Assembly (NCBI GenBank): GCA_027022105.1
Contig: JALVZH010000088.1
Coordinates: 6,253-38,259, forward strand
Length of the DNA: 32,007 nt
Direction of reading: 5' to 3'
From: Bacteroidales bacterium
Lineage (GTDB): Bacteria > Bacteroidota > Bacteroidia > Bacteroidales > F082
In this document: positions 10,509-30,775 of the stretch, piece by piece
Numbering within the stretch: the first letter of the stretch is position 1
Layout: each line of letters begins with the position of its first letter
Program-made: the position numbers and the translations under genes
The notes under the pieces: generated by a model
What the model saw: only the letters and a program-made list of their open reading frames with translations
Database searches by the model: none
What the model was told of the DNA's origin: nothing

Positions 10509-10509
10509 C

Positions 10510-11313
10510 TTAACTATTTTTTAAAACTTTTCTGGCACCCATATTCAGGTCATCCACTTCAAGTATCTCAAAATCATCGATTTCCCGAAGCACTTTTGTC
10601 AATTCCTTTTTTCCGCTATGAACCGATTCCATCACCATAATAATATTGGGGTATTTTCGCAAAAATCTTTTGGCTCCCTGCAAGACATTGGCTTCCATTC
10701 CCTCAACATCAATCTTCATAAATATTTTGTCATCTTCATTAAGACCGAGTTCGTCCATTAAATCGTCAAGCGGTACCACCTCACTCTCAACACTCATCTC
10801 CTCCGCCGGAACATAGTCATCGTCCGTTACAATATCGGCTTTATGAGATGCCCCCGTATTAACAAGATCAAAGGTAAATGTTGTTTTATAGCGTGAAGCA
10901 CCGAGAGCCACCGGATAAACGGTGACCAAATCCTCCAGTTTATTCAGTATCAGATTGACCCTTATTGCATCATAATTGTCTTTTACAGGCTCAAAAGCAA
11001 AAGTTTTTATCCCCTCTTTGGCAAACAAAATTGCGTAAGTCCCTATATTAGATCCAATATCAAAAAAGACGTTGCAGTCTTTATAATGGTCATAAACAAA
11101 CTTTTTCACCTCCCACTCATAGGCATAATTGGCAAACTGAAAGTCAAGGGTTCCTTTCCGTACCAAAAACATGCCGAGGCTGCTTTTATATATCTGCGTA
11201 CGGGAGGTGGTTCTTTTGGTAATTAAATATTTTATGGAAGATAAAATATACCTGTACTCGCCATGCTTTATAAAATCCCTTGTATATCTGAGAAAAGTAA
11301 TTAATTTATGCAT
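10510..11313 (-). CDS. FkbM-family SAM-dependent methyltransferase
   Basis: 267 residues. Class I methyltransferase motifs are visible: VFFDIGSNIGTYAILFA (about 82-98, SAM-binding glycine loop), TFAFEPV (104-110, acidic residue at the end of strand 2) and FMKIDVEGMEANVLQGA, the hallmark near the C-terminal part of FkbM enzymes. Family members O-methylate sugars or other hydroxyl groups and often occur in O-antigen and EPS clusters. Start is ATG; it follows the acyltransferase gene by 23 bp. Here it probably methylates a sugar of the repeating unit; the site is unknown. Confidence 0.9.
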   Translation of the reverse strand: MHKLITFLRYTRDFIKHGEYRYILSSIKYLITKRTTSRTQIYKSSLGMFLVRKGTLDFQFANYAYEWEVKKFVYDHYKDCNVFFDIGSNIGTYAILFAKEGIKTFAFEPVKDNYDAIRVNLILNKLEDLVTVYPVALGASRYKTTFTFDLVNTGASHKADIVTDDDYVPAEEMSVESEVVPLDDLMDELGLNEDDKIFMKIDVEGMEANVLQGAKRFLRKYPNIIMVMESVHSGKKELTKVLREIDDFEILEVDDLNMGARKVLKNS

Positions 11314-11336
11314 TCCTTCTGTTTTCTGAATTATTT

Positions 11337-11960
11337 TTAATCCTTTTTAACCCGTTCCCAGCGCTTTGTTTCCCGGTTGTATTGCTTTAACAGCCTGCCG
11401 GGATTCCCCCCCACAATAGAATATGGCGGGACATCTTTTACCACAACACATCCGGCTGCTATAATAGAATGTTTACCAACCGTTACCCCTGCCGTAACAA
11501 CAGCATTGGCACCTATCCACACATCATCTTCAATAACAATCGGCTTTGTTTCAACCGGCTGGAGACTTGGTGGTGTATTGATATCCTCATATCCATGGTT
11601 AAGGCCCGAAAGTACAACATTTTGTGCAAACATAACGTCGTTTCCGATAGTTACCGGACCAATAAGTACATTTCCGATACCAATGCGGGTTCTGTTGCCT
11701 ATAATCACATCGCCCACGCCATTGTTTACAGTGGCAAAGTCTTCGATGGTAGAGTCGTCGCCGAGTACGAAATTGTTAAACGGCATCACATCCATGCGGG
11801 TGCGGCGGCGGATTAGCGAACGTTTTCCTTTTTTGTGCTTCAAAGGATTTACAAACAGTTTGACCCAGAGTCTCGGCCTTGCCTGGTTCCTCGGCATCAA
11901 AGCCCAAAGTGCCAGTTTTTTCAGCCCGGGGTTCGATTTTATTTTATTTACTATTCCCAT
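11337..11960 (-). CDS. Left-handed beta-helix acyltransferase (NodL/WbbJ-like)
   Basis: 207 residues from the ATG at 11960. Hexapeptide repeats of the LbH fold are evident: [56 protein letters not shown], and the C-terminal [13 protein letters not shown] typical of maltose/galactoside O-acetyltransferase-type enzymes. [10 protein letters not shown] supplies the probable catalytic His. The N-terminus is basic. Longer in-frame starts exist upstream to 12047 but lie wholly inside the preceding glycosyltransferase gene; the chosen ATG leaves a 17-bp overlap with that gene and starts at MGIVNKIKS. It likely O-acetylates a sugar in the EPS repeat. Serine acetyltransferase is less likely from the C-terminal pattern. 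Confidence 0.88.
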
Positions 11961-13161
11961 TTTCTTTTTGTTTTTCGATGAGTTCAATCTTCTCAAAAAT
12001 AGCATTTGCATTGGCTTCCCAGGTGTGGCTGCGGGCAAGTTTTTCACGCTCCAGCTCTTTTTCGGGAGTATTTTCTTTTAGCGCCCGTTCAACCAGTTCC
12101 AGATATTCCTCTTTATTATTGGCAAGATAAACATAATCTTTGAACACCTCCATGGCCTTGGTTTTAGTAGCCACAGTCGGCTTGCCCATGGCGAGGTATT
12201 CATCAATTTTTCTGGGATAATTTCCAATGGTAACCTCATTGAGCTTTTGCGGGTTTAAAGCCACATCAAAAGCATAGAGATATGCCGGAAGTTCTTCCAT
12301 CTTTTTACTACCGAGGAAATAAACATTATCCATTTGGTGCAGCTTGCTGGCCTTAAACTCCTCATCTTCGGGACCCACCAGTACTATTGACCAGTCGGGA
12401 CGGTTTTCGGCAAGATGTACCAACACATCTATATCCAGACGTAAAGTGTAAAGTACCCCGATATAACCGATAATCGGTTTCTTAATTTTGGCTATGTCGT
12501 CGGGTACCTTTTTTATCAGTTTCTTATCAAAAAGAGTAACATCGCAACCCTGTCCCACATAAAAGGAATTGGGGTTAAACCTGCGGGCCAGTTCGGCCAG
12601 ATAGGTGGAGTTGGCAACCACCAAATCAACCTTTTTCATCAGTGCAGCCTCTATCCTGATTCCCTGTGTTTTCCAGTAATCAACGGCTATCATGTTGTCG
12701 CGGGTATAATAGCAATGGGTTTTGGCACCGATTAATTCTTTCAGGTAAAAACTCCTGAACATATCAGTATCGTTAAAAATAATGATGTCTTTAAACCCAA
12801 GCTCTTTTATGGCCTTGTTTACCTCTTTTGCGAACCGTTTGTTGTTGATTTTGTTCAAAATATCAAAAAGCCAGTCAATAGGCAATTGGTTAATGGATTC
12901 GAGAACCGTCAAAGGGAAAAAGCTCCACATGTTCTCTTTTACCTTTACCAAGTTGGGCTCTTTTTTCTTCAACATCCTCAACCGCTTCTGAATCAAAGGA
13001 TCTTTCCGCTCCCTGAGAATAGTCAACCTGTCGAGGGGGTAATTGACATATAAAACGCGGTTATGTTTGGAAAATTCGTCTGCAAGATTGATTACATTGC
13101 TTCCGATACGGCTGTCCAGTGCAGCCAAACCAACCATAACTATATCTCTGTTCTTTATCAT
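11944..13161 (-). CDS. GT-B fold glycosyltransferase (group 1-like)
   Basis: 405 residues. The N-terminal half has a Rossmann-type start ([24 protein letters not shown]) and the central [15 protein letters not shown]; the C-terminal half has the GT4-like block [57 protein letters not shown] and [20 protein letters not shown], which binds the nucleotide-sugar. This looks like the divergent TuaH-type group 1 family found in EPS clusters. It is soluble or peripheral at the inner membrane. ATG start, 12 bp after the next glycosyltransferase gene; its last 17 bp overlap the acyltransferase. Donor and acceptor are unknown. Confidence 0.88.
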
Positions 13162-13173
13162 AACAGTAAATTT

Positions 13174-14328
13174 TTATTTATAATGTTTGTCATAAACCTC
13201 TTTGTACAGTTTCAGAACCTCTTTGGCCATGTTCCTCCATGAAAATTTCTTTGAATGTTCCAATCCTTTTTCAATAAGTTCTCTCCGTAAAGCTTCATCG
13301 TTAAGTAGTTTTTCAATTCCTTCGGTTATCTCCTCAGGTTTATAAGGGTCAATAATATAAGCGTTACCTCCCGAAACTTCGGGCATGGAAGATGTATTGG
13401 AAGTAATAACCGGCACACCGCAGCGCATGGCTTCAAGCATAGGAATCCCAAAGCTTTCGCGCAATGAAGGATACAGAAATACCGAACAAAGATTGTATAT
13501 GGCCGGCAAATCGGTATTTACCACATATCCTGTAAGTACTATGCGGTTTATCAGCTCTTTGTCACCTATCTCCTCCAGTAGCTTATCCAGTGCAGAGCGC
13601 TCATAATCAAGCATCACCAGATAGATATCGTCGTTTGTCTTTCTCAGGTAATCGGAAAAAGCCTTCAATACACCTTTGGTATTCTTTTTAGGGTCGGTAT
13701 TTCCGAGAAAGAAAAGGAATTTGTCGGGAAGGTTATATTGCTTTTTCACCCTGTCGAGTTCCTCTTTGTCGTTAATTACCTTAAAGTGGTTGCTTACTCC
13801 GTTGTAAACCGCAACCAGTCTGTCGTTGCCAGGGGGAAAGCCGAAAAATTCATTAATCCGGTTTCTCTCAAATTTAGAAACGGTAATAATTTTATCACTT
13901 ATTTTCACCACTTTGGGCACATTCCATCTCCGGTACATGTTGCCCAGTTTCTGGTACCAGGTTCCTCCTTTTTTAAAGATACTGATACTTTCGAGGTAAA
14001 TAATATCGTGGAGGGTAACCACCAGCGGCATCCCCGGATTTACCGGTGCCGTATTGCTGGTACAATGCAAAATATGGCACCCTTCCTTTTTTGCCGCCTT
14101 GGGTAATGCAACCTGCTCCCAGGTAGGATAAGGGCCTCCGCCAAGCTCCACAAATTTAAAGTTGGGTGTTTTTCTGAAAATTTTATTGTCTTCATCAGGC
14201 TTTACAAAAACAACATACTCGTTTTCTTTGTCGATTTGCTGCAATTCGTTGATAAGTTCCAGCGCCACCATATCCATCCCGTGTTTCTTTTTCCGGTACA
14301 GCCTTTGACCCTCTATTCCTATTTTCAT
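13174..14328 (-). CDS. GT4-family glycosyltransferase
   Basis: 384 residues with clear family 4 features: N-terminal GIEGQRLYRKKKHGMDMVAL, central ITVSKFERNRINEFFG and VYNGVSNHFKV, then FLFFLGNTDPKKNTKGVLKA, VLTGYVVNTDLPAIYNLCSVFLYPSLRESFGIPMLEAMRCGVPV containing the E-x7-E nucleotide-sugar signature, and TSNTSSMPEVSGGNA. Retaining enzyme that extends the lipid-linked oligosaccharide on the cytoplasmic face; mannosyl/glucosyl donors are common in the family but not proven here. Start is ATG. A 101-bp AT-rich gap separates it from the upstream GT2; no -7 element, strong hairpin or small gene was seen in that gap. Confidence 0.93.
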   Translation of the reverse strand: MKIGIEGQRLYRKKKHGMDMVALELINELQQIDKENEYVVFVKPDEDNKIFRKTPNFKFVELGGGPYPTWEQVALPKAAKKEGCHILHCTSNTAPVNPGMPLVVTLHDIIYLESISIFKKGGTWYQKLGNMYRRWNVPKVVKISDKIITVSKFERNRINEFFGFPPGNDRLVAVYNGVSNHFKVINDKEELDRVKKQYNLPDKFLFFLGNTDPKKNTKGVLKAFSDYLRKTNDDIYLVMLDYERSALDKLLEEIGDKELINRIVLTGYVVNTDLPAIYNLCSVFLYPSLRESFGIPMLEAMRCGVPVITSNTSSMPEVSGGNAYIIDPYKPEEITEGIEKLLNDEALRRELIEKGLEHSKKFSWRNMAKEVLKLYKEVYDKHYK

Positions 14329-14429
14329 ATCTTTGTTAATTTATTTGAAACTTGTCCGTTAATTGTTACCTCAACCGTTACAGTCATTTATACTTATTGC
14401 AATATTATTTGTTACATTATTAACAGTTA

Positions 14430-15656
14430 TTATTTTCCCTTCTTCCAAAAACCCGAATGTTTTCTGTGTTTAATCTGGAATGCATTGTAAGTATGCTTTG
14501 TATGTAAGAACTCTTTATTGCTGTTTCCTATTTTTAACAGTGAAAACATCATCAACAAAAATCCATAAGGCAGGTATGACACAGCCTTTAAAGTTCTAAA
14601 ATTATAAAAATATCCGGGAATTGAAAGAAAAAATACCAAAACTATCAATGCAAATACGGAAAGCCACATTATCCTCGGGAATAAATCCGGAAATATTAAC
14701 GAGAGAGCCGCTCCCAGAAACAGAAGACCAATAAGTAAAATACGCGGTGGCAGCAGATACTGCATGGCTTTATTAAAATAATCGATATTTCCTTTTTTAA
14801 TCAGGTCTTTCAAAGCGGGCAAAAAACTTTTACCAAAGTAGTGTACCTGGGCCGAGAGCCATCTTCTCCGTTGTTTCACAAAAACTTTTGCATTAGGTAC
14901 TTTTTCATCATATACATACGCATTGGGCAGATAATCTATTTTCATTCCTTTTTGAAGCATAACCACCTCAATCTCCTTATCAAATCCGCCAACCACTTCC
15001 ACTTTTTTCATCATTTCTTTAAAAAAACGGTAATCGAAAGCCATGGCCGAACCTATAAGGGATGATGAGAGCCCCAACACCTGGTGTGCTTTTCTGAAAA
15101 GGTGGTTGTTTATCTCTTCGCTTACCGCATCAAGAACAGCAAAAGGCGTATCCATATTTTTGGCCACCCTGTGTCCCTGAACAGCATGCCGGTTTCTTGC
15201 AAAATCGGCATTGATCAGGTCGAGAAAATCAGGCGCCATTATGTTATCTGCATCCAAAACAACGGCAATTTCGTAACTATCGTCAAGCGTTTCAAGAGCA
15301 GCATTCAGTGCCCGCGATTTGGTACTTACTTTCAAATCAACTTTTATCACTTTCACGTTAATCTCTTCGAGTTGCCGCAAGGTTTCCTCTTTAAACCCGT
15401 CTGCAATTATTACTACCTCGTAATTTTCAATACCATAGTTCTGGTTCAGCGCTTCGAGAGCTACTCCTATAATTACTTCATCCTCCCTGTAACCGGGAAT
15501 CAGCACAACGGTTTTTCTCTTTCTTTGTGGTATTGTCAGGTTTTTTTTAACAGGGAAAAGTCCGGCAACGGAAAGAACAAACAAATAAACGGTAGATGCC
15601 GTCAGGTACAGGTACAACAGCCAAAGAATTATTTCTGTAATTTGAGCAAATATCAT
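14430..15656 (-). CDS. Membrane-bound GT2 glycosyltransferase, copy A of a duplicated pair
   Basis: 408 residues: N-terminal membrane helix (about 8-33), GT-A domain and C-terminal helices. Motifs: VVLIPGYREDEV, VVLDADNIM (metal-binding DADN at 135-138), FDKEIEV, and KQRRRWLSAQ (the Q-x-x-R-W motif at 262-266), the arrangement of hyaluronan/cellulose-synthase-like enzymes. It is strikingly similar throughout to the protein encoded at 16597-17820. Its ATG overlaps the upstream GT2 stop by 4 bases (ATGA). The pair with its 308-residue GT2 partner is repeated as the next two genes upstream in the operon, so the two modules arose by tandem duplication. Each copy probably adds a different sugar. 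Confidence 0.92.
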   Translation of the reverse strand: MIFAQITEIILWLLYLYLTASTVYLFVLSVAGLFPVKKNLTIPQRKRKTVVLIPGYREDEVIIGVALEALNQNYGIENYEVVIIADGFKEETLRQLEEINVKVIKVDLKVSTKSRALNAALETLDDSYEIAVVLDADNIMAPDFLDLINADFARNRHAVQGHRVAKNMDTPFAVLDAVSEEINNHLFRKAHQVLGLSSSLIGSAMAFDYRFFKEMMKKVEVVGGFDKEIEVVMLQKGMKIDYLPNAYVYDEKVPNAKVFVKQRRRWLSAQVHYFGKSFLPALKDLIKKGNIDYFNKAMQYLLPPRILLIGLLFLGAALSLIFPDLFPRIMWLSVFALIVLVFFLSIPGYFYNFRTLKAVSYLPYGFLLMMFSLLKIGNSNKEFLHTKHTYNAFQIKHRKHSGFWKKGK

Positions 15657-16579
15657 AACATTGGGTTTTCGTGGATTTCTTTAGAAAACAGATGCGTAAT
15701 ATGCCAGCCAATGGCACGGTAATAGGCAAGAAAAAAGGATATTTTTCCCTTTAATAAAAATTTAAGCGCATTTTTTGGTATGGCCACAAAAAGCTGGTAA
15801 AGCAAACCATATACATATTCTTTTCCCTGAATATTGCGGCGCATAAATACAATTCTGTTCCGGTTTTGGTAATAAATCTTCAGCGGGCTCATTTTTCCAG
15901 TGGAAACCGACTCTTTGTGAAGCACATAAGTGCTGCCCACATAATATATTTTATATCCTGCTTTTTTTATCCGGGCACACCAGTCGGCCTCTTCGTAATA
16001 AAGGAAAAAGATATAAGACATCAAACCAATCTCTTTTACAACCCGCATGGGAACCATCATGGCTGCTCCATGCGCATAGGCTGTTTCCCTGTCCTCGTTG
16101 TATTGCCCTCTATCTTTCTCCCAATACCCAATGGCAAAATTGCGCATGGTTACGGGATTGATGGGTGTATATCCCGCGTATTGAATGGTATCGGGCTGAT
16201 AATAAAACTTTATTCTGGGACTAACGGCACCGATTCCGGGATTTTTTTCCAACTTTTCAACAAGAGGCTCCATAAAACCCGGTGGCACCTCAATATCGTT
16301 GTTCAGCAAAAGAATATAATCACCCCGAGCACGCATCAATCCGTAGTTGTTTCCTGCAGCAAAACCATAATTAATCGGATTGGCAATATAAACCACCTCG
16401 GGATACCTTTTTTTTATAATGGTCGGGTCATCTTCCGTTGAATGGTTATCCACCACAATAATCTCAAAATTGGGGTAGGTAATTTTGTTCAACGACTCAA
16501 TTAAAGCACACGTCACCTCCGACTGGTTATAATTAACCGTAATTATGGAAACGAGCGGATAGTATTTTAATCGTGCCAC
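15653..16579 (-). CDS. GT2 glycosyltransferase, rhamnosyltransferase-like, copy A
   Basis: 308 residues. Typical WbbL/rhamnosyltransferase-like GT2: VSIITVNYNQSEVTCALIES at the N-terminus, IVVDNHSTEDD, LLLNNDIEV (93-98, metal-binding NND), GIGAVSPRIKFYYQP, and FFLYYEEADWCARIKKAGY with the catalytic acidic residues. The GTG start is preferred because no ATG occurs upstream before the previous gene and its product aligns with the 308-residue paralogue. It has a C-terminal hydrophobic/basic tail that may attach it to the membrane. Located 17 bp after the copy B membrane GT2 gene and overlapping the next gene by 4 bp. Confidence 0.92.
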   Translation of the reverse strand: MARLKYYPLVSIITVNYNQSEVTCALIESLNKITYPNFEIIVVDNHSTEDDPTIIKKRYPEVVYIANPINYGFAAGNNYGLMRARGDYILLLNNDIEVPPGFMEPLVEKLEKNPGIGAVSPRIKFYYQPDTIQYAGYTPINPVTMRNFAIGYWEKDRGQYNEDRETAYAHGAAMMVPMRVVKEIGLMSYIFFLYYEEADWCARIKKAGYKIYYVGSTYVLHKESVSTGKMSPLKIYYQNRNRIVFMRRNIQGKEYVYGLLYQLFVAIPKNALKFLLKGKISFFLAYYRAIGWHITHLFSKEIHENPML

Positions 16580-16596
16580 AACAGTTTTTTTACTTA

Positions 16597-17820
16597 CTAA
16601 TTGTGTTTAATATCATCCACATGCGAGTGCTCGGTGTGGATAAACTTTTTGGTAGCCCCTTTTACTTTAAACAGGCTGACAAGCATCAACACAAAGCCAT
16701 AGGGCAGCGACAACAATGCTTTCAGGGTAGCCCTGTTATAGAATTTCCTTGGGACAGAAAACAGAAGAGCAAGTACCGTACCTGCGAACAAAACAAGCCA
16801 GGCAACCGGCGCTGGTTTGATCCATTCGTGCATAACATCTCTCCACAGGTTACAGGTTACCAGTTCCAGCACAAGGATAAGGAAAAGGATACCCGTAAGC
16901 AAAATACGGGGAGGTTGAACCATTTGCAGCACTTTGTCGAAATAGTCGAAATTACCTTTGGTAAACAGTTGAACCACACCATCCCAAAAGTGTGTTCTGA
17001 AATAGTCAAGTTGTGCGGCAATCCACCGGCGTCTTTGGTTAACAAACACATCCGATTTCTGTGTCTTTTCATCAAATATAATGGCATCATGAACATACTC
17101 GATAGTATGCCCCTGCCTGATAATTTTCAGTTCCACCTCTTTGTCCTCCCCTACCGAGTCAACGGTTGCCATGGTTGTTTTAAAAAGCCGGTAATCGAGC
17201 CCCATACCCGAGCCGATAAGTGCCGATGATATACCAAGAACACGATGACCTTTTCTAAAGATATGATTATTAATCTCTTCGCTAATGGCATCGAGAATAG
17301 CAAAATTGGCATTAAGGTTCTTGGCTGTACGGTGCCCCTGAACAGCCGTGAATCCACGGTCGAAAGCAGCATTTATTTTGGTGAGCACATCGGGTTTCAT
17401 AACGTTATCGGCATCCAGCACAAATGCCACATCATAATCGTCGCCGATAACCTCCATGCATTTATTCAAAGCTTTTGATTTTTTACTGACTTCAAAAACA
17501 ACTACTACGACCCTGATGGGCAACTTGCGCAAGGCTTCGAGCGTTTCCTCTTTAAACGAGTCGGCAATAACAATTACCTCGTACTTATCTTTCGGATAGT
17601 CCTGGTTAAGAGCCTCTTTTGCCACATGCACAATTACGGCATCTTCTTTATAACCGGGAATAAGAACCGCAAATTTTCTGTATTTCGAAACTTTTTCAAC
17701 CTGTTTCTGTCTGTAAAAAAGGCCTGCTACTGCATAAACAAATATATACACGGTTGCCGAAGCAAAATAGATGTACAAAATGTATTGAATAATAATTAAT
17801 GTAATTTTTACTATTTCCAT
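16597..17820 (-). CDS. Membrane-bound GT2 glycosyltransferase, copy B of a duplicated pair
   Basis: 407 residues with the same plan as the copy at 14430-15656: membrane helix at about 8-34, AVLIPGYKEDAVI, VLDADNVMKPD (DADN 136-139), GEDKEVELKI, NQRRRWIAAQ (Q-x-x-R-W 262-266), then C-terminal helices. Aligned catalytic stretches of the two copies share more than half of their residues by eye, including the invariant EEINNH(I/L)FRK and QGHR blocks. Start is ATG, 3 bp after the preceding gene. The C-terminal end (HTEHSHVDDIKHN) is short. Retention of all active-site motifs in both copies argues that both are functional. Confidence 0.92.
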   Translation of the reverse strand: MEIVKITLIIIQYILYIYFASATVYIFVYAVAGLFYRQKQVEKVSKYRKFAVLIPGYKEDAVIVHVAKEALNQDYPKDKYEVIVIADSFKEETLEALRKLPIRVVVVVFEVSKKSKALNKCMEVIGDDYDVAFVLDADNVMKPDVLTKINAAFDRGFTAVQGHRTAKNLNANFAILDAISEEINNHIFRKGHRVLGISSALIGSGMGLDYRLFKTTMATVDSVGEDKEVELKIIRQGHTIEYVHDAIIFDEKTQKSDVFVNQRRRWIAAQLDYFRTHFWDGVVQLFTKGNFDYFDKVLQMVQPPRILLTGILFLILVLELVTCNLWRDVMHEWIKPAPVAWLVLFAGTVLALLFSVPRKFYNRATLKALLSLPYGFVLMLVSLFKVKGATKKFIHTEHSHVDDIKHN

Positions 17821-17823
17821 AAC

Positions 17824-18750
17824 TTATTTTTTTCTTTTTAAGCGGGGTAACCCGTATATATTTTTATGATGTGTCCAGTTCCACCAAACCGCTTTCCAGT
17901 ACGCCAGCATCAAATCGGGCCTGCGTTTTAGCAAAAACTCCAGGCTTATTTTCGGCGCAGATATAAAATAAAGATACAACAGACTTAACAATCGTGTAAA
18001 GCCTCTGTTATTTCTGCGCGCATACAAAATCCTTCCCCGGTGCAAATAAAAAATCTGAAACGGGCTGTTTTTAACCGTTGAAATTGACTCTTTATGATAA
18101 ACCAGCGATTTTCCCTGATAATAAATCTTGTATCCTGTCTTCTTTATATGCTCCGCCCAGTCGTGTTCTTCATAGTAAAGAAAAAACACCTCGGTCATCA
18201 TTCCGACCTGTTCAATCACACGCATGGGAACCAGCATAGCCGCACCGAAAATAGAACCCGTCTCGCAGGTATGGTCGTACTGACCGTTGTCTGTTTCGCC
18301 AAATCCGATGGCAAAATTTCTGATTGTGATAGGATGAATGGGTGTAAAACCTGCAAACTGAAGTGTTTTGGGTGTATGGTAATATTGAATCTTCGGGCTT
18401 ACCATGCCTATTGACGGGTCGTTTTCAAGTACCTCCACAAGAGGTTCCAGGAAATTCTCTTCAACCTCGGTATCGTTGTTAATAAAAAGCACATATTTAC
18501 CTTTGCAGTATGGCAGTGCAACATTGTTTCCTCCTGCAAAACCGAGGTTTTTTTTCGTTTTAATTAAATGTACGTAAGGATACTTCTCTTTAATGATATC
18601 GGGATTATCATTGGGAGATGCATTATCGACAACAAAAATCTCTGTATTGGGATAGGTTATCTTTGCAAACGACTCCAGAAATTCACATGTTACAGCCGAT
18701 TGATTGTAATTGACCGTAACAACCGAAACAAGGGGTAATTGATTTTTCAT
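17824..18750 (-). CDS. GT2 glycosyltransferase, rhamnosyltransferase-like, copy B
   Basis: 308 residues from the ATG at 18750; a TTG at 18792 would add 14 residues but overlaps the polymerase gene, and the ATG gives exactly the length of the paralogue at 15653-16579. Motifs: LVSVVTVNYNQSAVTCEFLES, FVVDNASPNDN, LFINNDTEVE, IGMVSPKIQYYHTP, VFFLYYEEHDWAEHIKKTGY. The segment PITIRNFAIGFGETDNGQYD matches PVTMRNFAIGYWEKDRGQYN in copy A, a family-specific stretch. AAAGGG just upstream is a possible weak ribosome-binding site. Probably transfers a deoxysugar such as rhamnose to the growing lipid-linked unit, by family analogy only. Confidence 0.92.
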   Translation of the reverse strand: MKNQLPLVSVVTVNYNQSAVTCEFLESFAKITYPNTEIFVVDNASPNDNPDIIKEKYPYVHLIKTKKNLGFAGGNNVALPYCKGKYVLFINNDTEVEENFLEPLVEVLENDPSIGMVSPKIQYYHTPKTLQFAGFTPIHPITIRNFAIGFGETDNGQYDHTCETGSIFGAAMLVPMRVIEQVGMMTEVFFLYYEEHDWAEHIKKTGYKIYYQGKSLVYHKESISTVKNSPFQIFYLHRGRILYARRNNRGFTRLLSLLYLYFISAPKISLEFLLKRRPDLMLAYWKAVWWNWTHHKNIYGLPRLKRKK

Positions 18751-18767
18751 ACCCTTTCTACGTAATA

Positions 18768-20264
18768 TTAATCTCTTGGTTTCAATGACCAAGGTGAGAT
18801 TCCCTGGGCAATTCTTGCGACATACTCTCTGTCAAGCTGTTGGGCTGCAAAAATAAAACTCCAACTAAGATATAACAAAATACCGGTAGGCATCTGACCA
18901 AGCACACCATTCCCATAGGCGGCCCCGAAAATACCGGCATAGCCACCCAGCAAGGCTCCGAGAACCCCGCTCAGTTCTTTGCTTTTTACCCGGGCCATTA
19001 TCAAATAGAAACCCTTGAACATGATGTACATCAGGATAAAAACATGGAGAATTAAACCTACACGTCCCTGCTCTGCCCATATTTGTACATACCAACTGTC
19101 GGTAGCAACATTGGCAAGGAAACCCTGCGGTGAAAAACGTTGCCCCCAGTTACCTGCCGACCCGATACCACCTCCAAAAGGTTTATCGGACAGATATTCT
19201 TTTAAAATAGCACGGTTTTTTAAACGCACCTGATAAGAGGCATCATTTTCAGGACGAAAAGCGGTACGCATCCTTGCAATGGTATAATTACTTTCGCCAA
19301 TATAGGTATGAGCAAAAAAGACATATACAATGGCAAGCAACAGAGCTCCCCACATGATCACTTTAAAACGCTTCGACAAAATTAAGAAGGTAATACCCCC
19401 AAGCATAGGAACGATCATGGCACCCCTGGTACCCGAAATCATCATTCCCCATAAAGACATCAATCCTACAAAGTAAAAAAACAGTTTATTAAACCTCCCC
19501 CGTATAACCGGTGCAATACCAAGGAACACCGTTCCTGCAGCTCCCTGTGCAGCTCCAAACTGGCCGGCATCACTAAAAAAGGAAAATATCCTGAGTTTAC
19601 CATTAATAACATGGGTAATTGCACCCACTGTATCGAGCCAGTACTGCTCGGCAGAATCAAGACCGATATAGGATTGCTGTAAGCCTTTTAATGTGGCAAG
19701 GAGCGAGAAAATGGCCCATATCATCAGAAACGCATAGAGATGACGTAACCTGCTGAATATAAGCAACCCCAACGGTACCACCAACAAAGGATACATCGAC
19801 ATACCACGCATGGCATAAAACCAGGCTGTACGACTGAGCGCCAAAGGGTTAAAAAGTTCCATTACACCATATAAAAACCATATGAGTGTAAGATAAACTA
19901 TATCCCGTTTTATCTGGGTTAAATCAATCCTGTCATAAAAGTTCCTGAAAAAGAAAGCAATATAAGTAAGCACCAACAAGGCATCAATCGACAATCCGAA
20001 CGGGACGCCTTTTATATACCGGGTAAGACCGATTGCCAGAAAAGCCATTACGATGGTGGTATAAAGGCCAAGAGTAGGATGGTTAAAAAGACGGTTCAGG
20101 TAAATAATAATGGGAACCAATAAAAGAATGGCAAGAGAAACCTTTACCCCCCCTTTTGCTATGATATACCCCAAAACAAGAGTTGCAAGAAAAATAATCG
20201 CAATCACCAACGGGTGTTGCAACTTGTTCGCTCCTGTCTTTTCTTTTAACGATTCCAGCATCAT
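18768..20264 (-). CDS. O-antigen polymerase/ligase-like membrane protein (Wzy/WaaL type)
   Basis: 498 residues, about 11-12 hydrophobic helices. A large periplasmic loop near the C-terminal third, with YQVRLKNRAILKEYL and KPFGGGIGSAG, then TDSWYVQIWAEQGRVGLIL, resembles the Wzy_C/O-antigen ligase family, in which the loop carries the catalytic arginines. It would polymerise flipped lipid-linked repeat units on the periplasmic face, working with the flippase and the Wzc-like protein just upstream. Start is the ATG at 20264 (or the next codon, also ATG). The product length is normal. Ligase versus polymerase cannot be separated by sequence, but the gene order (flippase, co-polymerase next to it) favours polymerase. 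Confidence 0.88.
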   Translation of the reverse strand: MMLESLKEKTGANKLQHPLVIAIIFLATLVLGYIIAKGGVKVSLAILLLVPIIIYLNRLFNHPTLGLYTTIVMAFLAIGLTRYIKGVPFGLSIDALLVLTYIAFFFRNFYDRIDLTQIKRDIVYLTLIWFLYGVMELFNPLALSRTAWFYAMRGMSMYPLLVVPLGLLIFSRLRHLYAFLMIWAIFSLLATLKGLQQSYIGLDSAEQYWLDTVGAITHVINGKLRIFSFFSDAGQFGAAQGAAGTVFLGIAPVIRGRFNKLFFYFVGLMSLWGMMISGTRGAMIVPMLGGITFLILSKRFKVIMWGALLLAIVYVFFAHTYIGESNYTIARMRTAFRPENDASYQVRLKNRAILKEYLSDKPFGGGIGSAGNWGQRFSPQGFLANVATDSWYVQIWAEQGRVGLILHVFILMYIMFKGFYLIMARVKSKELSGVLGALLGGYAGIFGAAYGNGVLGQMPTGILLYLSWSFIFAAQQLDREYVARIAQGISPWSLKPRD

Positions 20265-20303: not shown

Positions 20304-21731
20304 TTATCTCCTCAATCTTAATAATCCGCTTCTAAAAAACCAGTAACCTCCGCGCAAAATATTTCTGTACTTCAGGTTCAACTCTTTGTTCAGATAGTGA
20401 AACCCTACAAAAATACCTATTAAAGTAAACAGTATGGTTACCCAGGCAACACTTTCAAGAACATTTATTACCGTAAACTGTTTGATAACATTTCCCAAAA
20501 GAGTTACGTCGTTGAAACCTGATAAAACCAAAGCCATAAAAGCAACAAACAGGCTTATATAATAAAAACCAAACACCATAATACTGTCGCCAATGATATT
20601 GGCCAGAGTCATATACACCACTTTTATAAAATTTTGTTTCGGCCTGTTCACACTGTCTAAAGCCACTCCAACAAACCTGTCGATGGGCAACAGCAGTCCG
20701 TACACACAAAATATTCTCAGTATGGCTGCCGTTTCTTCATACCCTTTACCCCCCACAATATACACAAATTCTTTGGCAAAGATAAATGTGATTAACATTA
20801 CCGGTACCATCAGGAGTGTCATCCCTCCGGCATTGTAATAAAAAATATTTTTTACCTCTTCATCATTTTTTTCAATGCTTGCTTTCGACATACTGGGAAA
20901 CGCAGTCATGGCAAAGCTGCGCAACGGAATCTCGATAATCTCCGTAAGTTTCAAAGGGATGCTGTATAAAGCCACACCCGTTGTCCCCAAAAACGGACTT
21001 AAACCGATAATAAAAGTGTCGGCACTTTTTAACAAATTACTCCCAATCAGGGTACCTGTAGTATATTTTCCAAAGTCGAGAATAACTTTATTGGCTTTCC
21101 GGGTAGCATGCCCGAAATATTTTATCCCGTCCCAATTGAACAAAGAGGCAACAAGTGATGTAATAAAATTGGTTATGAGATATGCATAAACAATAATCAG
21201 AAGACCCGCATGAAAAAAGATAAAGTTAGCCAAAAGAAAGAGCATAAAAAGTCCCACATTGATAATGCGCAACAACAGAATGTAATCAAACCTGAGTTTT
21301 GCCTGTAATACCGACTGTGCATTATTGAACGGAATGGTAATAACGGCAATAACCGGAAACCAGGTAAAAAACAGTGAAAATCCCGAAGACTTTATCTGAT
21401 CGGGAAACAGGTAATTAGCCAAAAGTACAAGTGCAATGATAATTATGGTACTGACAATACCAATAACATAATTGGAACCGATCAGCTCTTTGGCCTCTTT
21501 TTCGTCCGCTCCGGACAGAAAGCGGACAATTGCAGTCCGCGTAATACCAAAACGGAACATATCAATAAAATTAGCAGTGGTAATTAACAAAACCCATTCA
21601 CCGAAATCGGAAGTTGGAAGACTTCTGACAAGAATCAGAAAACTGAAAAAACCGAATACGGCAACCAAACCATTGTTGGCCAGCGAAAGAAAGTTCTTGT
21701 TTTTAAATATTTTAACAACAACATTTGCCAC
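20304..21731 (-). CDS. Polysaccharide flippase (Wzx / MATE-like MOP superfamily)
   Basis: 475 residues with about 12-14 membrane helices. FLSLANNGLVAVFGFFSFLILVRSLPTSDFGEWVLL is the usual N-terminal pattern of lipopolysaccharide/EPS flippases, and TGVALYSIPLKLTEIIEIPLRSFAMTAFPSMSKA sits at the middle cytoplasmic region. It moves undecaprenyl-linked repeat units across the inner membrane. The start is GTG, 3 bp after the Wzc-like gene stop; the preceding in-frame codons are TAA GCA, so no longer start is possible. Cotranscribed with the co-polymerase upstream and polymerase downstream. Confidence 0.92.
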   Translation of the reverse strand: MANVVVKIFKNKNFLSLANNGLVAVFGFFSFLILVRSLPTSDFGEWVLLITTANFIDMFRFGITRTAIVRFLSGADEKEAKELIGSNYVIGIVSTIIIIALVLLANYLFPDQIKSSGFSLFFTWFPVIAVITIPFNNAQSVLQAKLRFDYILLLRIINVGLFMLFLLANFIFFHAGLLIIVYAYLITNFITSLVASLFNWDGIKYFGHATRKANKVILDFGKYTTGTLIGSNLLKSADTFIIGLSPFLGTTGVALYSIPLKLTEIIEIPLRSFAMTAFPSMSKASIEKNDEEVKNIFYYNAGGMTLLMVPVMLITFIFAKEFVYIVGGKGYEETAAILRIFCVYGLLLPIDRFVGVALDSVNRPKQNFIKVVYMTLANIIGDSIMVFGFYYISLFVAFMALVLSGFNDVTLLGNVIKQFTVINVLESVAWVTILFTLIGIFVGFHYLNKELNLKYRNILRGGYWFFRSGLLRLRR

Positions 21732-21734
21732 TGC

Positions 21735-24686
21735 TTAAGCTTCTTTCTTGACTGATATTTTAAATTTGGTCGGATAGGTGATAATATATTTTATCTTTTC
21801 AATATATTTTTTCCTATTCTTTGGTAATTCGGTAATTATCTCATCCAGAGCGTAAGATTCAACATGATTCAAAATTACCAGAGGTTCTGTACCAAGCGCG
21901 GCTTTAAATGTTTCCAGTGCCCGTTCGTCGGCTTTGGTTAATTTTTGTGTCGCTTTTACAACATACAATGCCGCATCCATTTTCTTTAATAACCTCAGCG
22001 GATAAGAATGATAAATAATAGAGGGAATCTCAATAAAAATGTAATCGTATGATGAGTTTACCTTTCTAAGATATTTTTTCCCTATCAATTCACCAAGATT
22101 TTCCACATCAATAAAGTTATCGGAGATTTTATAGGTATAATAATAGTTAAAATCATTTTCCTCATTCTCTTCGCCCTCTTTGGAATAATTGAGGTACAAT
22201 ACCCTGTCGCCAATGGTTCGCAACCTGTTTACAATTTTATGGGTTATCAGTGTTTTTCCGGTTTTATTCTGTGTGCTGAACACCAGAATAAAGTATGGAT
22301 TATTGCCCTCTTTTTTCAGTGAGGACAATTGCAGTTTCAGATTTTGTATGGTCATGTCTATCAGACGCGTACTTATGGAGGCAAGTGCCAAAGCCTGTTC
22401 TTTATCCGAGAGAGCGGGATAGGCGCCGGCAAGTTTCATCTTGGTTTTTTCCACAACCCTGCTGGGGTTTTTCATGGAAGTATCGAAATACTCAAGCGAT
22501 ACAATGATGAAAGCGATAATAATAAATCCTGCCAGAAATGCGGCCACAACCATAAACTTGGCTTTGGAAGGATTGGGTGCAATGGGGAAATAGGGAGGAT
22601 CGACAATTTTAACATTGGTTGACATCTCCAGGTTTTGCTGTTTCATTTTGGCAATATTCAAGCTCCTTAACAACTCAAAGTATGTTTGTTCAGCAAGTTT
22701 TATTTCTCTTTCAATGCGAGTAAGCATTGCTCCGAGTGGTGCATATTTTTGGTAAGTCCGTATAAAATCAAGTTTTCGTTGTGACAAAACTTTCAACGAT
22801 GCTTTGGCCTCAACATAATCAATGGTATTTTTAAGCCACTCGTCGAGCAACTGTTTTATGGGCACTCCCTGTGTGGAATGGCCGTACAGATAGAGCTGGT
22901 CGGCATACAGCTTAATTTCGTCGCGTAACCGCTTCTGCCTCCTTTTTAGTGCTGCTATATCCTTCGCAATTCTGTCATCATAATTTGCCGCAAGCTGATT
23001 GATTAATATTTTTTCGGAAACATCGGCAAGTTCCTTTTTCCTTTGGTTTATTACATCACTCTTTAAATAAATGGAATCACGAGCAGTCATTTTGGTTTCA
23101 AGTTCCTGTAATGCAGCCGACGAGGAGGACATTCTGATTTGTTCATTTTGATAATATACATCCAGATCCTCTTTTTGAGCGGCAATATATTTACTTTGCT
23201 CGTAATAGTTTATAATGTTGTTTTTCTTGTTAAACCTGAGCAAACGGTCCTCCGCTTCCTGCAGTTTTTGATCCGCTTCTTTTACCTGTTGTTCAAAATA
23301 TTTAACCACAAGGTCTGTCTCATTAATTCGCAGCAACTTGTAATTCTTCATAAATACTGTCGAAAGTATCTTCAATGTTTGCTGACAAATTCCTGGGTCG
23401 TCGGAGGTAAAGGTCAGTTTCACAAGATCGCTGTTATTTATGCGGTATATTTGCACCTGACTGATGGAGCGAATGCTATAATGTTTGCTCTGGCCGTAAT
23501 GCAGCAAACCGTAAATATAATTGGAATCGCTGGAGGCGTAATAGTTTTTCATATTCCTTACCGTAGCCTCATAATCTTCTTTTTTAACTCCGGGCGGAAT
23601 AATGGGGTCTTTTACAAATATCCTGTCGCCGGAAGCTGATGACAAAGAGGCAAAGGGTTGTTGGGTTTCAGGTTCTGAAGTTACCTCAACCGGTTGAGTT
23701 TGAGAATAAATGGAAGTCTGATCTTCCGAAACCTGTTTCACGGCAAAATCATATGAACTCGTAGTACTTTTTCCCCCGTCGCTAATGATAATCCGCTGAC
23801 CCGGTGTAAGCGAACGGTTGTTTAAATTGTTCAACTCGCGCAATTTGCTAATATTTACCCCGTACCGCTTTGCTATAGAGTAAAGCGTTTCTCCGGGCTT
23901 TACCGTATGATATTGGAGTGAAGTAACTGTTTCAGGTTTTCTAATGATCAGATTCTGTCCGGGCGACAAATCGGAATCATCATTTATACCGTTAAGGTTC
24001 ATCAATTGCCCCCTTGAAACCCCATACCTGGCGGCAATACTGCTTAATGTTTCGCCGGGAAGAACCGTATGGTACTCAGGTAAATTATTTTCCTGATTAT
24101 TATACTCGGGTGCACTGTTTTTTTCTAATCCGTAACCGGCAGGCGATTTTTGGATACCCGATTGTACACGTTTTACCTGTGAGAGTTCCCGAATAGCTTT
24201 GTTCTTCTTTTTACTTATCTCTTTTTCAAGTGAACGGATCTCTTTTTCCAGTTTATGTATTTGTTCTTCCTTTTCACGCTCAACTCCGGACTTACCATTC
24301 TTCACCACAAGATTTTTAATATACTTCGGTGTTTCTGCCATCAGTTTATCATAATTCTCATTTGAAATGTACTGGCGATTATAACTTTCGAGAGAAAGAT
24401 CCTGAGCATAAAGACGAATAGCAGTCTCAACTATGGTCTGCCTGGAATTCAGCAGGTTAATCATGTTGTCAAATTGCGCACTGGTACTAAAAAAGTCCGT
24501 TGGCCGCTGAGAGGTACTTTCAATGGAATATCCGGTTGTAATACCGGTATAGATTATTGCTTCCGACTGGTAAACCTTCTCCTGGTTTCTTGTAAAGTAA
24601 TAGACAAGAATGGCCAGAAAAAGAGGAACTGCAAGAAGCAGCACAATATTCCTTTTAAAAAGCCTTATAAAATATAGTAAATCCAT
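21735..24686 (-). CDS. Wzz/Wzc-like polysaccharide co-polymerase with two LysM domains and a degenerate kinase-like domain
   Basis: 983 residues, longer than typical Wzc/GumC (about 700-800). TM1 at 13-31 opens a large periplasmic part; two LysM repeats lie at about 205-249 (YHTVLPGETLSSIAARYGVS) and 259-302 (YHTVKPGETLYSIAKRYGVN), inserted in a disordered, Gln/Ser-rich region. Long coiled-coil helices follow (about 455-690), then NVKIVDPPYFPIAPNPSKAK, the usual proline-rich segment before TM2 (711-731). The cytoplasmic part has a P-loop-like FSTQNKTGKT (803-812), but Walker A' (VLYLNY 829-834) lacks the aspartates and Walker B (IFIEIPS 883-889) has Glu in place of Asp. No C-terminal Tyr cluster is present. 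It probably controls chain length and links export to the peptidoglycan; kinase activity is doubtful. Confidence 0.9.
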   Translation of the reverse strand: MDLLYFIRLFKRNIVLLLAVPLFLAILVYYFTRNQEKVYQSEAIIYTGITTGYSIESTSQRPTDFFSTSAQFDNMINLLNSRQTIVETAIRLYAQDLSLESYNRQYISNENYDKLMAETPKYIKNLVVKNGKSGVEREKEEQIHKLEKEIRSLEKEISKKKNKAIRELSQVKRVQSGIQKSPAGYGLEKNSAPEYNNQENNLPEYHTVLPGETLSSIAARYGVSRGQLMNLNGINDDSDLSPGQNLIIRKPETVTSLQYHTVKPGETLYSIAKRYGVNISKLRELNNLNNRSLTPGQRIIISDGGKSTTSSYDFAVKQVSEDQTSIYSQTQPVEVTSEPETQQPFASLSSASGDRIFVKDPIIPPGVKKEDYEATVRNMKNYYASSDSNYIYGLLHYGQSKHYSIRSISQVQIYRINNSDLVKLTFTSDDPGICQQTLKILSTVFMKNYKLLRINETDLVVKYFEQQVKEADQKLQEAEDRLLRFNKKNNIINYYEQSKYIAAQKEDLDVYYQNEQIRMSSSSAALQELETKMTARDSIYLKSDVINQRKKELADVSEKILINQLAANYDDRIAKDIAALKRRQKRLRDEIKLYADQLYLYGHSTQGVPIKQLLDEWLKNTIDYVEAKASLKVLSQRKLDFIRTYQKYAPLGAMLTRIEREIKLAEQTYFELLRSLNIAKMKQQNLEMSTNVKIVDPPYFPIAPNPSKAKFMVVAAFLAGFIIIAFIIVSLEYFDTSMKNPSRVVEKTKMKLAGAYPALSDKEQALALASISTRLIDMTIQNLKLQLSSLKKEGNNPYFILVFSTQNKTGKTLITHKIVNRLRTIGDRVLYLNYSKEGEENEENDFNYYYTYKISDNFIDVENLGELIGKKYLRKVNSSYDYIFIEIPSIIYHSYPLRLLKKMDAALYVVKATQKLTKADERALETFKAALGTEPLVILNHVESYALDEIITELPKNRKKYIEKIKYIITYPTKFKISVKKEA
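23781..24074 (-). repeat. Tandem LysM domain pair within the co-polymerase gene
   Basis: Two in-frame LysM units (residues about 205-249 and 259-302), separated by about 9 residues. Both carry YHTV-PGETL-SIA-RYGV and end in SPGQNLIIRK or TPGQRIIISD. LysM binds N-acetylglucosamine-containing glycans such as peptidoglycan. They lie between the first membrane helix and the coiled coil, i.e. in the periplasm. Confidence 0.9.
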
Positions 24687-24705: not shown

Positions 24706-25497
24706 CTATCGCAAAATATTTATCAAATTAAATTTCATTCCCGTTGTTACCTCCAACAATTGATAATTCTTATTGAATTGTGCCACAGCCTGCTGAAAAT
24801 TGATAGCTCCTCTTGTTTGAATCTCTTTTAAGCGGGTGTATTCTGCTGTTGTAATCTCCCCGTTTAAAAATTCATTTTGAGCCATCTGCATTTGCAGCAA
24901 TGTAAAATTCTGATAATCATTATAAATACGTATATATTGCTGATATTGTTGCAAATCGTTATAAATGGTAATTACCTCCTTTACCAAAAACCGTTTGTTA
25001 ATCTCTTTCTGTGCCATGGATATCTCCTGCCACTTTTTCTGCTTTTTAATCCGGTTACGCCGGTCAACAAGGGTAGCCAACGGAAAACGCATATAAAAAC
25101 CTATGGCATAATTATCGCGCCATGATTGTGTCCAATAGAACCTGTCTGTTCGTGTCAGCTCATCCTTATCCCAGTAATTCCATTTTCCGATATTGAGGTC
25201 GAGATTTACACTAAAATGTTCAAGCCACTCCCTTTCTACTGATAGCTGTTCGTAAGTATAATAGTCTCTCTTCAGGTCTTCATAAAGCATGGAAGGCGAA
25301 TTATAAGTAGCCGAATCAATAAGCACCTGTAACGGAGGTAACCGTTTGGTAATGTCATCCGTAATGGGATTAAAAAACATGGAGCTGTCTATCCTCCTTG
25401 CAAACTGAGCATTGATGTTTTTAAAAGGCATTACTGCCAACACCAATAGAATTCCCAAGAATGTTAATCCCGTTTTTTTGTGTATCATTTGTTTCAT
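24706..25497 (-). CDS. Half-length TolC-family outer-membrane protein
   Basis: 263 residues from the ATG at 25497 (MKQMIHKKTG), which places a signal peptide ending near NINAQ; an upstream in-frame start at 25518 is less favourable. A middle part has barrel-like strands (FSVNLDLNIGKWNYWDKDEL, YAIGFYMRFPLAT) and the rest is a single long helical hairpin (ISMAQKEINKRFLVKEVITI ... QNFTLLQMQMAQNEFLNGEI ... FNKNYQLLEVTTGMKFNLI). The end, LLEVTTGM, is the typical end of a TolC repeat. TolC proteins are normally about 420-480 residues with two such repeats, so only one is present. It lies 19 bp upstream of the LysM co-polymerase gene and is probably its outer-membrane partner, because no Wza homologue is in the locus. 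Confidence 0.78.
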   Translation of the reverse strand: MKQMIHKKTGLTFLGILLVLAVMPFKNINAQFARRIDSSMFFNPITDDITKRLPPLQVLIDSATYNSPSMLYEDLKRDYYTYEQLSVEREWLEHFSVNLDLNIGKWNYWDKDELTRTDRFYWTQSWRDNYAIGFYMRFPLATLVDRRNRIKKQKKWQEISMAQKEINKRFLVKEVITIYNDLQQYQQYIRIYNDYQNFTLLQMQMAQNEFLNGEITTAEYTRLKEIQTRGAINFQQAVAQFNKNYQLLEVTTGMKFNLINILR

Positions 25498-25524
25498 GTT
25501 CAAATATCGTTCTTCCATTTTAAC

Positions 25525-25601: not shown

Positions 25602-26813
25602 CTAAACACTTTCTTTTTGAAACAAAGCCGGTATCGTTCTCAGTATCAGCTTTATATCACCCCAGAACGAATAGTTCTGCGCATAATAGTTATCCAGCCG
25701 TTTCCTCTCTTCCTCCGACATTACACCGCCCTTTCCGCGCAATTCAACCTGCCATAAGCCCGTAATACCCGCCGGACCGAGGAACCGTGCACTCCAGTCG
25801 TCCGAAGTCAGCAACTCGGCTTCATACAAAGGTAGCGGCCTGTTCCCCACAATCGACATATCTCCTTTCAACACATTGATAAGTTGCGGTAATTCATCAA
25901 TGCTTGTATTTCTGATAATTTTCCCGACCTTGGTAATCCGCGGGTCGTTGGGTATTTTGACGAATGTTGTTTTTTTCTTTTTCTGTTGTTCGCGATACCA
26001 GTATTCGCAAATCTTTTTCCCTTCTATGTAAAGAACAGGTGAACAATATTCTCCTTCCGGCAGTTTTGCGCAGCGCGGACATTCTTCTTCAACTTCATTG
26101 GTTTTTTTCTGTTCTTCTTCTGCTGCTTTTTGTGCAGCAGCATATTGATTCATGTGCTCCAACTCTTTCAGTTTGGCATCTGCACCTGTGTACATGGAAC
26201 GGAATTTAAGGAAATCGAAAACCTTGTATCCCGTTCCCACACGTTTCGACTTATAAATAACCGGCCCTTTCGACTCCAGTTTTATAGCAATAGCTACCAG
26301 TAGCAGTAATGGCGAAAGGATAATCAATGCAGTAAGCGAAACGACAATATCAAAAAGCCTTTTGATAAACGGGATTTTATATTCCGGTACCGGTTCGTTT
26401 TCCGATTTCTTATCTGCAAGTTCACGAAGATAATAAATAAGAAAACGGATTCTTATTTCCAGATCTTTATTATCCACAGGAAGCTGATAATAATCGTCGA
26501 TAATCCCTTTCCTGGAGAACATTTCTTCCTTTTCTTTTTCGTTGTGTTCAAAAGAAATAAGGATGAAAGGAATTTTGGAAAATTGTTTTTTGCTTTTTAC
26601 CAGTTTGGCTACCTCATCACCATTGATACCGGGAAGACGCACATCACTTACAATAGCATCCACAGGACCTTCTTTACTTAGATAGTCCATAGCTTTGAGC
26701 CCGTTTTCTTTTCTTACGGCATCAAAAGAGTAATACTGGCCTAACTGCTCAAAAAATTCAAGGTTATTGCCAATATATAAAACTTTTAACTTTCCTCTGT
26801 TATCGGCTTCCAT
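25602..26813 (-). CDS. Phosphoglycosyl transferase (initiating sugar transferase) fused to an N-terminal pseudo-receiver
   Basis: 403 residues. The N-terminal 8-130 is a receiver domain: KVLYIGNNLEFF replaces the acidic pair with Gly-Asn, D57 is kept (IVSDVRLPGING), and the conserved Lys is Leu111 (YYQLPVD), so it is degenerate. A bacterial sugar-transferase domain follows: KRLFDIVVSLTALIILSPLL (151-170, membrane helix), VFDFLKFRSMYTGAD (198-212), the catalytic DE in TSIDELPQLINVLKGDMSIV (D306-E307) and FLGPAGITGLWQV. Between about 213 and 283 lies an unusual insertion with C245-x2-C248-x8-C257-x11-C269. It transfers a sugar phosphate from a nucleotide-sugar to undecaprenyl phosphate and starts the repeat unit. 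ATG start; it follows the stand-alone receiver by 11 bp. Confidence 0.92.
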   Translation of the reverse strand: MEADNRGKLKVLYIGNNLEFFEQLGQYYSFDAVRKENGLKAMDYLSKEGPVDAIVSDVRLPGINGDEVAKLVKSKKQFSKIPFILISFEHNEKEKEEMFSRKGIIDDYYQLPVDNKDLEIRIRFLIYYLRELADKKSENEPVPEYKIPFIKRLFDIVVSLTALIILSPLLLLVAIAIKLESKGPVIYKSKRVGTGYKVFDFLKFRSMYTGADAKLKELEHMNQYAAAQKAAEEEQKKTNEVEEECPRCAKLPEGEYCSPVLYIEGKKICEYWYREQQKKKKTTFVKIPNDPRITKVGKIIRNTSIDELPQLINVLKGDMSIVGNRPLPLYEAELLTSDDWSARFLGPAGITGLWQVELRGKGGVMSEEERKRLDNYYAQNYSFWGDIKLILRTIPALFQKESV

Positions 26814-26824
26814 GCGCTTTACCG

Positions 26825-27202
26825 TTATTTACTTATCCGTTTGAGGATATTGTTAATTCGAATAGCCAGCTCTTCGGGATTAAACGGCTTAACAATATAG
26901 TCGTCAGCACCCATTTTCAGGCATTTTACCCGTTCCTGACTACTTTCAATACCCGAAAGCATTATTACGGGAATATGTTTAAAAAAGCCGCTTGCTCTAA
27001 CTTTTTCCAAAAAAGCGTACCCGTCAATGTTGGGCATTTGAACATCGGCTACAATCAGGTCGGGCATTTCACCCTCTTCAAGGTATTTCAGTCCTTCCTG
27101 CCCATCCTTCTTTGTAACAACCTCATACTCTTTACCTAAAAAATTTTCGAGAAGCATCCTGATGCTTAACTCGTCATCTATTACCAAAATTTTTCTCTTC
27201 AT
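26825..27202 (-). CDS. Single-domain response regulator, first gene of the EPS operon
   Basis: 125 residues from ATG 27202 (MKRKILVIDDEL); a TTG at 27211 adds three residues and is less likely. A complete receiver: IDDE acidic pair, phosphoacceptor Asp in LIVADVQMPNIDG, MLSG Ser and IVKPFNP Lys are all present, so it can be phosphorylated. There is no output domain. It is the first gene of the minus-strand EPS locus and lies just below a consensus-type promoter, so it may act as an input to the receiver-fused sugar transferase that follows. Phosphodonor unknown. Confidence 0.93.
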   Translation of the reverse strand: MKRKILVIDDELSIRMLLENFLGKEYEVVTKKDGQEGLKYLEEGEMPDLIVADVQMPNIDGYAFLEKVRASGFFKHIPVIMLSGIESSQERVKCLKMGADDYIVKPFNPEELAIRINNILKRISK

Positions 27203-27249
27203 AATTTGCAATATTTTTCATTTATATTGAGGTACTAATTGCCAGTAAA

Positions 27250-30690: not shown

Positions 30691-30706
30691 GATTCCTATT
30701 TTTTTA

Positions 30707-30714
30707 CAAAACTA
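30707..30714 (-). promoter_or_regulatory. Candidate -7 box for the ABC permease gene
   Basis: TAGTTTTG on the minus strand fits TAnnTTTG. It ends 17 bases before the TTG start codon at 30690, so the transcript would have a very short leader. No good -33 TTG is seen in the 86-bp divergent region. Confidence 0.35.
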
Positions 30715-30729
30715 CGGCTTTTCTCCCCA

Positions 30730-30756
30730 TTGCTACCTGAAGAATTTGTATTTTTA
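30730..30756 (+). promoter_or_regulatory. Weak candidate promoter for namZ
   Basis: TTG at 30730-30732 and TATTTTTA at 30749-30756 (one mismatch to TAnnTTTG), spaced 16 bases, lie 20 bp before the ATG. It is slightly short in spacing and one base off consensus, so this is a suggestion only. Confidence 0.25.
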
Positions 30757-30775
30757 CGACTTTAAAAAGAAATAC

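Follow-up and report, generated by a model that had tools for sequence, protein, structure and literature searches.

Proteins of the TolC family contain two tandem repeats in about 420-480 residues, and each subunit contributes four strands to a trimeric, 12-stranded barrel that is continued by a periplasmic tunnel. Wzy-dependent polysaccharides are normally exported through Wza, and the exit for the Psl polysaccharide of Pseudomonas aeruginosa is the OPX protein PslD. In E. coli, the forearm of Wzc (the tip of its arm) contacts D1 of Wza, and this interface is essential for export (PMC12881504). The Myxococcus EpsX/EpsY exit is a composite of an OPX protein and a beta-barrel, the barrel being an 18-stranded, AlgE/PgaA-like monomer (PMC9601211, PMC9603273). 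The alpha-proteobacterial OMA proteins carry an MFP-like (adaptor-like) helical region, and they are a precedent for components passing between polysaccharide export and tripartite pumps of the TolC type (PMC2850547). The open-licence PMC literature yielded no precedent for a TolC-type exit in a Wzx/Wzy system or for a single-repeat TolC; the nearest published concept is the composite exit of Myxococcus, in which the OPX protein is still present (PMC9601211).

Here we describe a polysaccharide locus in a 32,007-nucleotide stretch of a Bacteroidales genome (GCA_027022105.1, contig JALVZH010000088.1, positions 6,253 to 38,259; hereafter the window). A first-pass annotation had proposed that a TolC-like protein with one repeat, the half-TolC, forms a multimeric exit that replaces Wza and is paired with a LysM co-polymerase. 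Like TolC, OprM and CmeC, the half-TolC has a Sec signal and the repeat fold of a helix, two long strands, a long helix and a helix, with a conserved glycine in the periplasmic turn. It differs from them in having one repeat rather than two and two strands per subunit, so the number of subunits would also differ, and its partner is a polysaccharide co-polymerase, with no membrane-fusion protein or pump adjoining. The locus resembles the E. coli Wza-Wzc system in having a Wzx/Wzy operon and a co-polymerase of the Wzc fold next to an outer-membrane protein of a channel family, but it lacks Poly_export/SLBB, and its co-polymerase is a predicted pseudokinase that has no tyrosine tail and carries LysM domains in the nearer relatives. 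Among proteins of known structure, the co-polymerase is closest in sequence to PslE (profile search, E = 1.5e-20) and next to Wzc; Psl has PslD, whereas the half-TolC locus has no OPX protein. With EpsX/EpsY the locus shares a Wzx/Wzy pathway and, in the route proposed here, a beta-barrel protein that makes the membrane crossing, but the Myxococcus system retains its OPX protein and its barrel is monomeric rather than a TolC-type oligomer. Finally, the OMA proteins gained adaptor-like helices, whereas in half-TolC loci the place of the OPX protein seems to be taken by a TolC-type protein.

Gene content of the locus

The initiating phosphoglycosyl transferase (PGT), Wzx, Wzy, polysaccharide co-polymerase (PCP) and glycosyltransferases of a Wzx/Wzy-dependent pathway lie in one operon (Table 1), and the genes from the glycosyltransferases to the methyltransferase probably build the repeat unit. 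On the contigs of named genomes, the order is response regulator, receiver-PGT, half-TolC, PCP, Wzx and Wzy, and synteny places the receiver-PGT fusion directly upstream of the half-TolC in nearly all loci.

Table 1. Genes of the polysaccharide locus in the window.
Gene	Positions	Strand	Features or evidence
Glycosyltransferases, hexapeptide acyltransferase, FkbM methyltransferase	9315..18792	-	Pfam
Wzy-type polymerase (Wzy_C/O-antigen ligase superfamily)	18768..20264	-	Pfam, synteny
Wzx-type flippase (MatE/MOP)	20304..21731	-	Domain scan, synteny
Wzc/PslE-like polysaccharide co-polymerase (PCP), 983 aa	21735..24686	-	TM, two LysM, helical arm, TM, predicted pseudo-tyrosine-kinase
Half-TolC	24706..25518	-	Single-repeat OEP, Sec signal peptide, one membrane beta-hairpin and one helical repeat
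Initiating PGT with N-terminal receiver fusion	25602..26813	-	Pfam Bac_transf 6.9e-60, Response_reg 1.6e-7
Single-domain response regulator, conserved first gene of core operon	26825..27211	-	Domain scan, synteny

Within positions 25602-27211, the receiver fused to the PGT lacks the usual acidic pair and has a Cys-rich insert (CPRC...C...C), and the single-domain response regulator precedes it. This arrangement resembles the EpsW/EpsZ control of Myxococcus, in which a PGT is controlled by a single-domain regulator (PMC12802240). The regulator and receiver-PGT may replace control by tyrosine phosphorylation, which we propose because the co-polymerase appears to be a pseudokinase. Two further genes were noted. 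Inside the locus, 7663-9318 encodes a right-handed beta-helix protein bearing a sorting tail for type IX secretion; it has a homologue in a remote locus (L186) and may be a polysaccharide lyase or binding protein that is secreted. A NamZ exo-beta-N-acetylmuramidase (30614-31972) is encoded beside the locus, on the other strand.

The half-TolC is a complete single TolC repeat

The half-TolC reading frame encodes 270 residues, or 263 if translation starts at the ATG at position 25497, and it begins with a good Sec signal peptide that ends in ...NINA before Q (cleavage site judged by eye). Pfam identified a single OEP stretch (E = 4.9e-9, profile positions 52-187 of 187) and matched OEP in all 27 aligned members of the family, and a domain scan of the protein detected neither Poly_export (PF02563) nor SLBB. 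A half-TolC HMM matched most full-length TolCs of the window's genome once per half, and thus the half-TolC corresponds to one TolC repeat in both length and register. The AlphaFold2 model, computed from 27 sequences (pLDDT 84.6), has helices at 68-94, 140-211 and 217-252 and strands at 95-111 and 120-136, which is the content of one TolC repeat. With two strands only per subunit in this model, the protein lacks the two tandem repeats of the TolC family. The top PDB matches of the model in Foldseek were all outer membrane factors of the TolC/CmeC/OprM/CusC type (probability 1.00), with loose monomer superpositions (TM ~0.5, rmsd ~8-10 Angstrom). A PDB profile search with the half-TolC alone gave nothing meaningful. 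Strand amphipathicity relative to shuffled sequences had the same sign in 27/27 half-TolCs and was not significant for any one sequence. N212 and G213 are nearly invariant and form an NG turn that joins the two long helices and is equivalent to the periplasmic tip of TolC, the part that meets adaptor proteins. With agreement among Pfam, the HMM, AlphaFold and Foldseek on the single repeat that the first-pass annotation had read in the sequence, we conclude that the gene product is a half-TolC, secreted and comprising one complete TolC repeat.

The half-TolC family is linked to its co-polymerase

Of 149 genomes belonging to the nearest groups, 61 had the short form; the search gave 62 matches, one of which (in G100) was a full-length TolC. 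These short forms are mostly one intact frame of ~253-308 residues, with 58-77% identity within the family, and a few of the 61 are cut by contig ends. Over all searches, intact members have about 227-318 residues. The 60 loci in named GTDB genomes belong chiefly to Bacteroidales MAGs, with one in Lentimicrobiaceae and one in a genome labelled Prevotella. A phylum-wide sample gave matches in 26 of 396 genomes, of which ~21 were short forms, and the pair of half-TolC and co-polymerase recurs in ~5% of the genomes sampled over the phylum. Other half-length OEP matches in the window's genome, on contigs C366, C303, C230 and C113, lay at contig ends and were not counted as further half-TolCs.

In the window, the half-TolC is separated by 83 nt from the PGT and by 19 nt from the gene downstream (24686..21735), which is the LysM co-polymerase, as first annotated. 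The co-polymerase directly follows the half-TolC on 59 of 60 named contigs, and the sixtieth contig stops just past the half-TolC. When the co-polymerase was searched for in these 149 genomes, it was found in all 61 that have a half-TolC and in three more: one with a divergent half-TolC directly adjoining (G091), one in which the locus is cut by a contig end (G147) and one whose co-polymerase has no helical arm (G111). Among 20 remote loci, 17 had the two genes side by side and two others had them within one cluster; L177 alone had no co-polymerase. LysM domains were found in 24 of 44 aligned co-polymerases, those nearer the window, and the remote ones that still pair with a half-TolC have none. 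We therefore rejected LysM as an essential partner. The co-occurrence that had been anticipated between half-TolC and a LysM-Wzc held for the co-polymerase, a nearly invariable partner, but not for LysM; because the LysM insert is limited to nearer relatives, the true partner is the PCP itself.

Two side observations were made in these loci. A truncated relative of the co-polymerase (L197:9816-11024, 402 residues) keeps LysM and has no helical arm, and no half-TolC was detected in its genome. Beside the half-TolC cluster, several remote loci encode LruC-domain proteins of ~675 residues (TIGR04456; L183:12720-14741 and L193:5371-7395), with ORFs of similar size in L185 and L187; these proteins may be an extra surface component.

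The co-polymerase is Wzc-like with a predicted pseudokinase domain

In the AlphaFold model of the co-polymerase, a first TM helix is followed by two LysM domains (204-302), whose linkers are of low confidence, and then by a long helical arm (431-688); a second TM helix (709-733) precedes a kinase-like domain. Its fold is closest to Wzc (Foldseek E = 2e-16), and Pfam gave weak Wzz and GNVR matches, with GNVR in 34 of 44 sequences. The co-polymerase shares the architecture of PCP-2a proteins, in which two TM helices enclose a periplasmic Wzz/GNVR portion with a long helical arm. The structure entries of PslE and Wzc have eight chains each. In the 44 aligned co-polymerases, the Walker A lysine is invariant (44/44), the Walker B aspartate is replaced by glutamate (44/44), Walker A' is lost, and the C-terminal tyrosine tail of active BY-kinases is absent. 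Because of the last three features, we conclude from the motifs that the kinase-like domain is a pseudokinase. The Wza-linked Wzc of the window's genome (C48; L020:3460-5934) has a long (GY)n tyrosine tail, unlike the co-polymerase linked to the half-TolC.

Half-TolC operons lack Wza

Pfam scans of the large ORFs found no Wza/SLBB gene in the window, and a whole-genome search with PF02563 gave only two matches, on contigs C48 and C120 and none on the window's contig. The locus is thus free of Wza, as the first-pass annotation had stated; the genome is not, and both of its Wza genes adjoin their own Wzc-type gene. A Poly_export search found at least one Wza somewhere in the genomes of 54 of the 61 half-TolC relatives and none in seven. 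A Wza in the same regulon had been named as grounds for abandoning the proposal, and no half-TolC operon that we read contains one. Likewise, in no remote half-TolC genome with comparable positions was Poly_export within the operon, the nearest being ~19 kb away (G492).

The best Wza-less genomes are drafts of one genus, G023 (completeness 98%, contamination 1%), G072 (98%, 4%) and G081 (93%, 9%). Poly_export was not detected in these three, and their SLBB matches are only to proteins of other sizes (~340-780 residues). The ~820-residue Wzc, which lies directly beside a Wza in 7/7 comparison genomes, is absent from G023 and G072. In these two drafts, the Wza-Wzc pair is therefore missing as a unit while the half-TolC and its co-polymerase are retained. 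This is the strongest argument that Wza seems dispensable for the half-TolC module.

A proposed export route and its alternatives

We consider it likely that the locus encodes a complete Wzx/Wzy exopolysaccharide pathway in which the half-TolC is the outer-membrane exit in place of Wza, and we infer the oligomer, its docking and export. Each half-TolC would give one beta-hairpin and one helical repeat. With one hairpin per subunit, a ring would need more subunits than the TolC trimer; three half-TolCs could supply six strands at most. Six would reproduce the TolC geometry with 12 strands, and eight would form a wider, 16-stranded barrel in keeping with the eight-fold symmetry that Wzc and PslE show. 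At its periplasmic tip, where the NG turn lies, the ring would dock on the tips of the helical arms of the co-polymerase, much as the Wzc forearm sits on Wza D1, and a single duct would then run from the Wzy polymerase out to the cell surface. Where LysM domains are present, in the closer relatives of the window, they would hold the co-polymerase to the peptidoglycan. Of the original proposal of a multimeric exit paired with a LysM co-polymerase, the replacement of Wza is favoured by the conserved family, the linkage, the fold and the Wza-free operons, but LysM is not the partner.

A different role would be accessory: the half-TolC would help at the outer membrane, and the polymer would exit via a Wza whose gene lies elsewhere in the genome. 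Such a Wza could act in trans, as most half-TolC genomes carry one, including the two genes in the window's genome, and EpsX/EpsY is a known case of an exit composed of two outer-membrane partners (PMC9601211). We regard this as unlikely, since each Wza of the window's genome adjoins its own Wzc, G023 and G072 keep the half-TolC operon without Wza and its Wzc, and no half-TolC operon that we read includes a Wza.

Because the Wzy_C family, which the polymerase matches, also holds O-antigen ligases, the product is perhaps a cell-bound glycan. Bacteroidota decorate LPS and proteins with glycans, and a glycan on lipid A or on a lipid or protein carrier might cross by Lpt or another route, with the half-TolC in a structural or sensing role. 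However, several genomes have a separate short Wzz-type PCP (~360 residues) of the O-antigen kind, the arm of the co-polymerase is long, as is typical of the export-type Wzc and PslE, and the reading gives no account of why a beta-hairpin protein of outer-membrane type should be conserved. We find this reading improbable.

It appears less probable still that the half-TolC works with a tripartite pump or in type I secretion and lies in the operon by accident. Characterised members of the OEP superfamily do serve such pumps, but the ORFs scanned in the window include no HlyD/AcrA-type adaptor and no RND or ABC exporter, several full-length TolCs in the genome are available for pumps, and the linkage to the co-polymerase holds across the phylum.

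Lastly, the protein spans just half of TolC, and decay or a frameshift of a full-length TolC had been raised as a possible refutation; we reject this with near certainty, because dozens of orthologues, in 61/149 genomes, share length, intact frames and synteny, the flanking gaps leave no space for a second repeat, and the half-TolCs group as a single clade that lies apart from both repeats in the sampled full-length TolCs.

Origin of the half-TolC

That clade was recovered in a tree of 46 half-TolCs together with the two repeats from each of 14 full-length TolCs. The topology argues against recent shortening; the tree is effectively three-group and unrooted, and is compatible with either an unduplicated ancestor or an ancient loss. 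The half-TolC profile scores the C repeats of TolC higher, which is not evidence of origin because the Pfam OEP model generally favours them as well. A combined reading, in which eight half-TolCs form an OPX-free, 16-stranded C8 exit on an octameric PslE/Wzc-like co-polymerase that acts as the adaptor, and in which the half-TolC also descends from an unduplicated TolC ancestor, is tentative, and we lean against its holding in full.

Implications

If the half-TolC is indeed the exit, TolC-type efflux and Wza-type capsule export, which are taught as separate, would be combined in one machine. This would account for Wzy-type exopolysaccharide operons without Wza in some Bacteroidota, which searches based on Wza would overlook. 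The family would also offer a natural single-repeat TolC in which to study the evolution of barrels by duplication.
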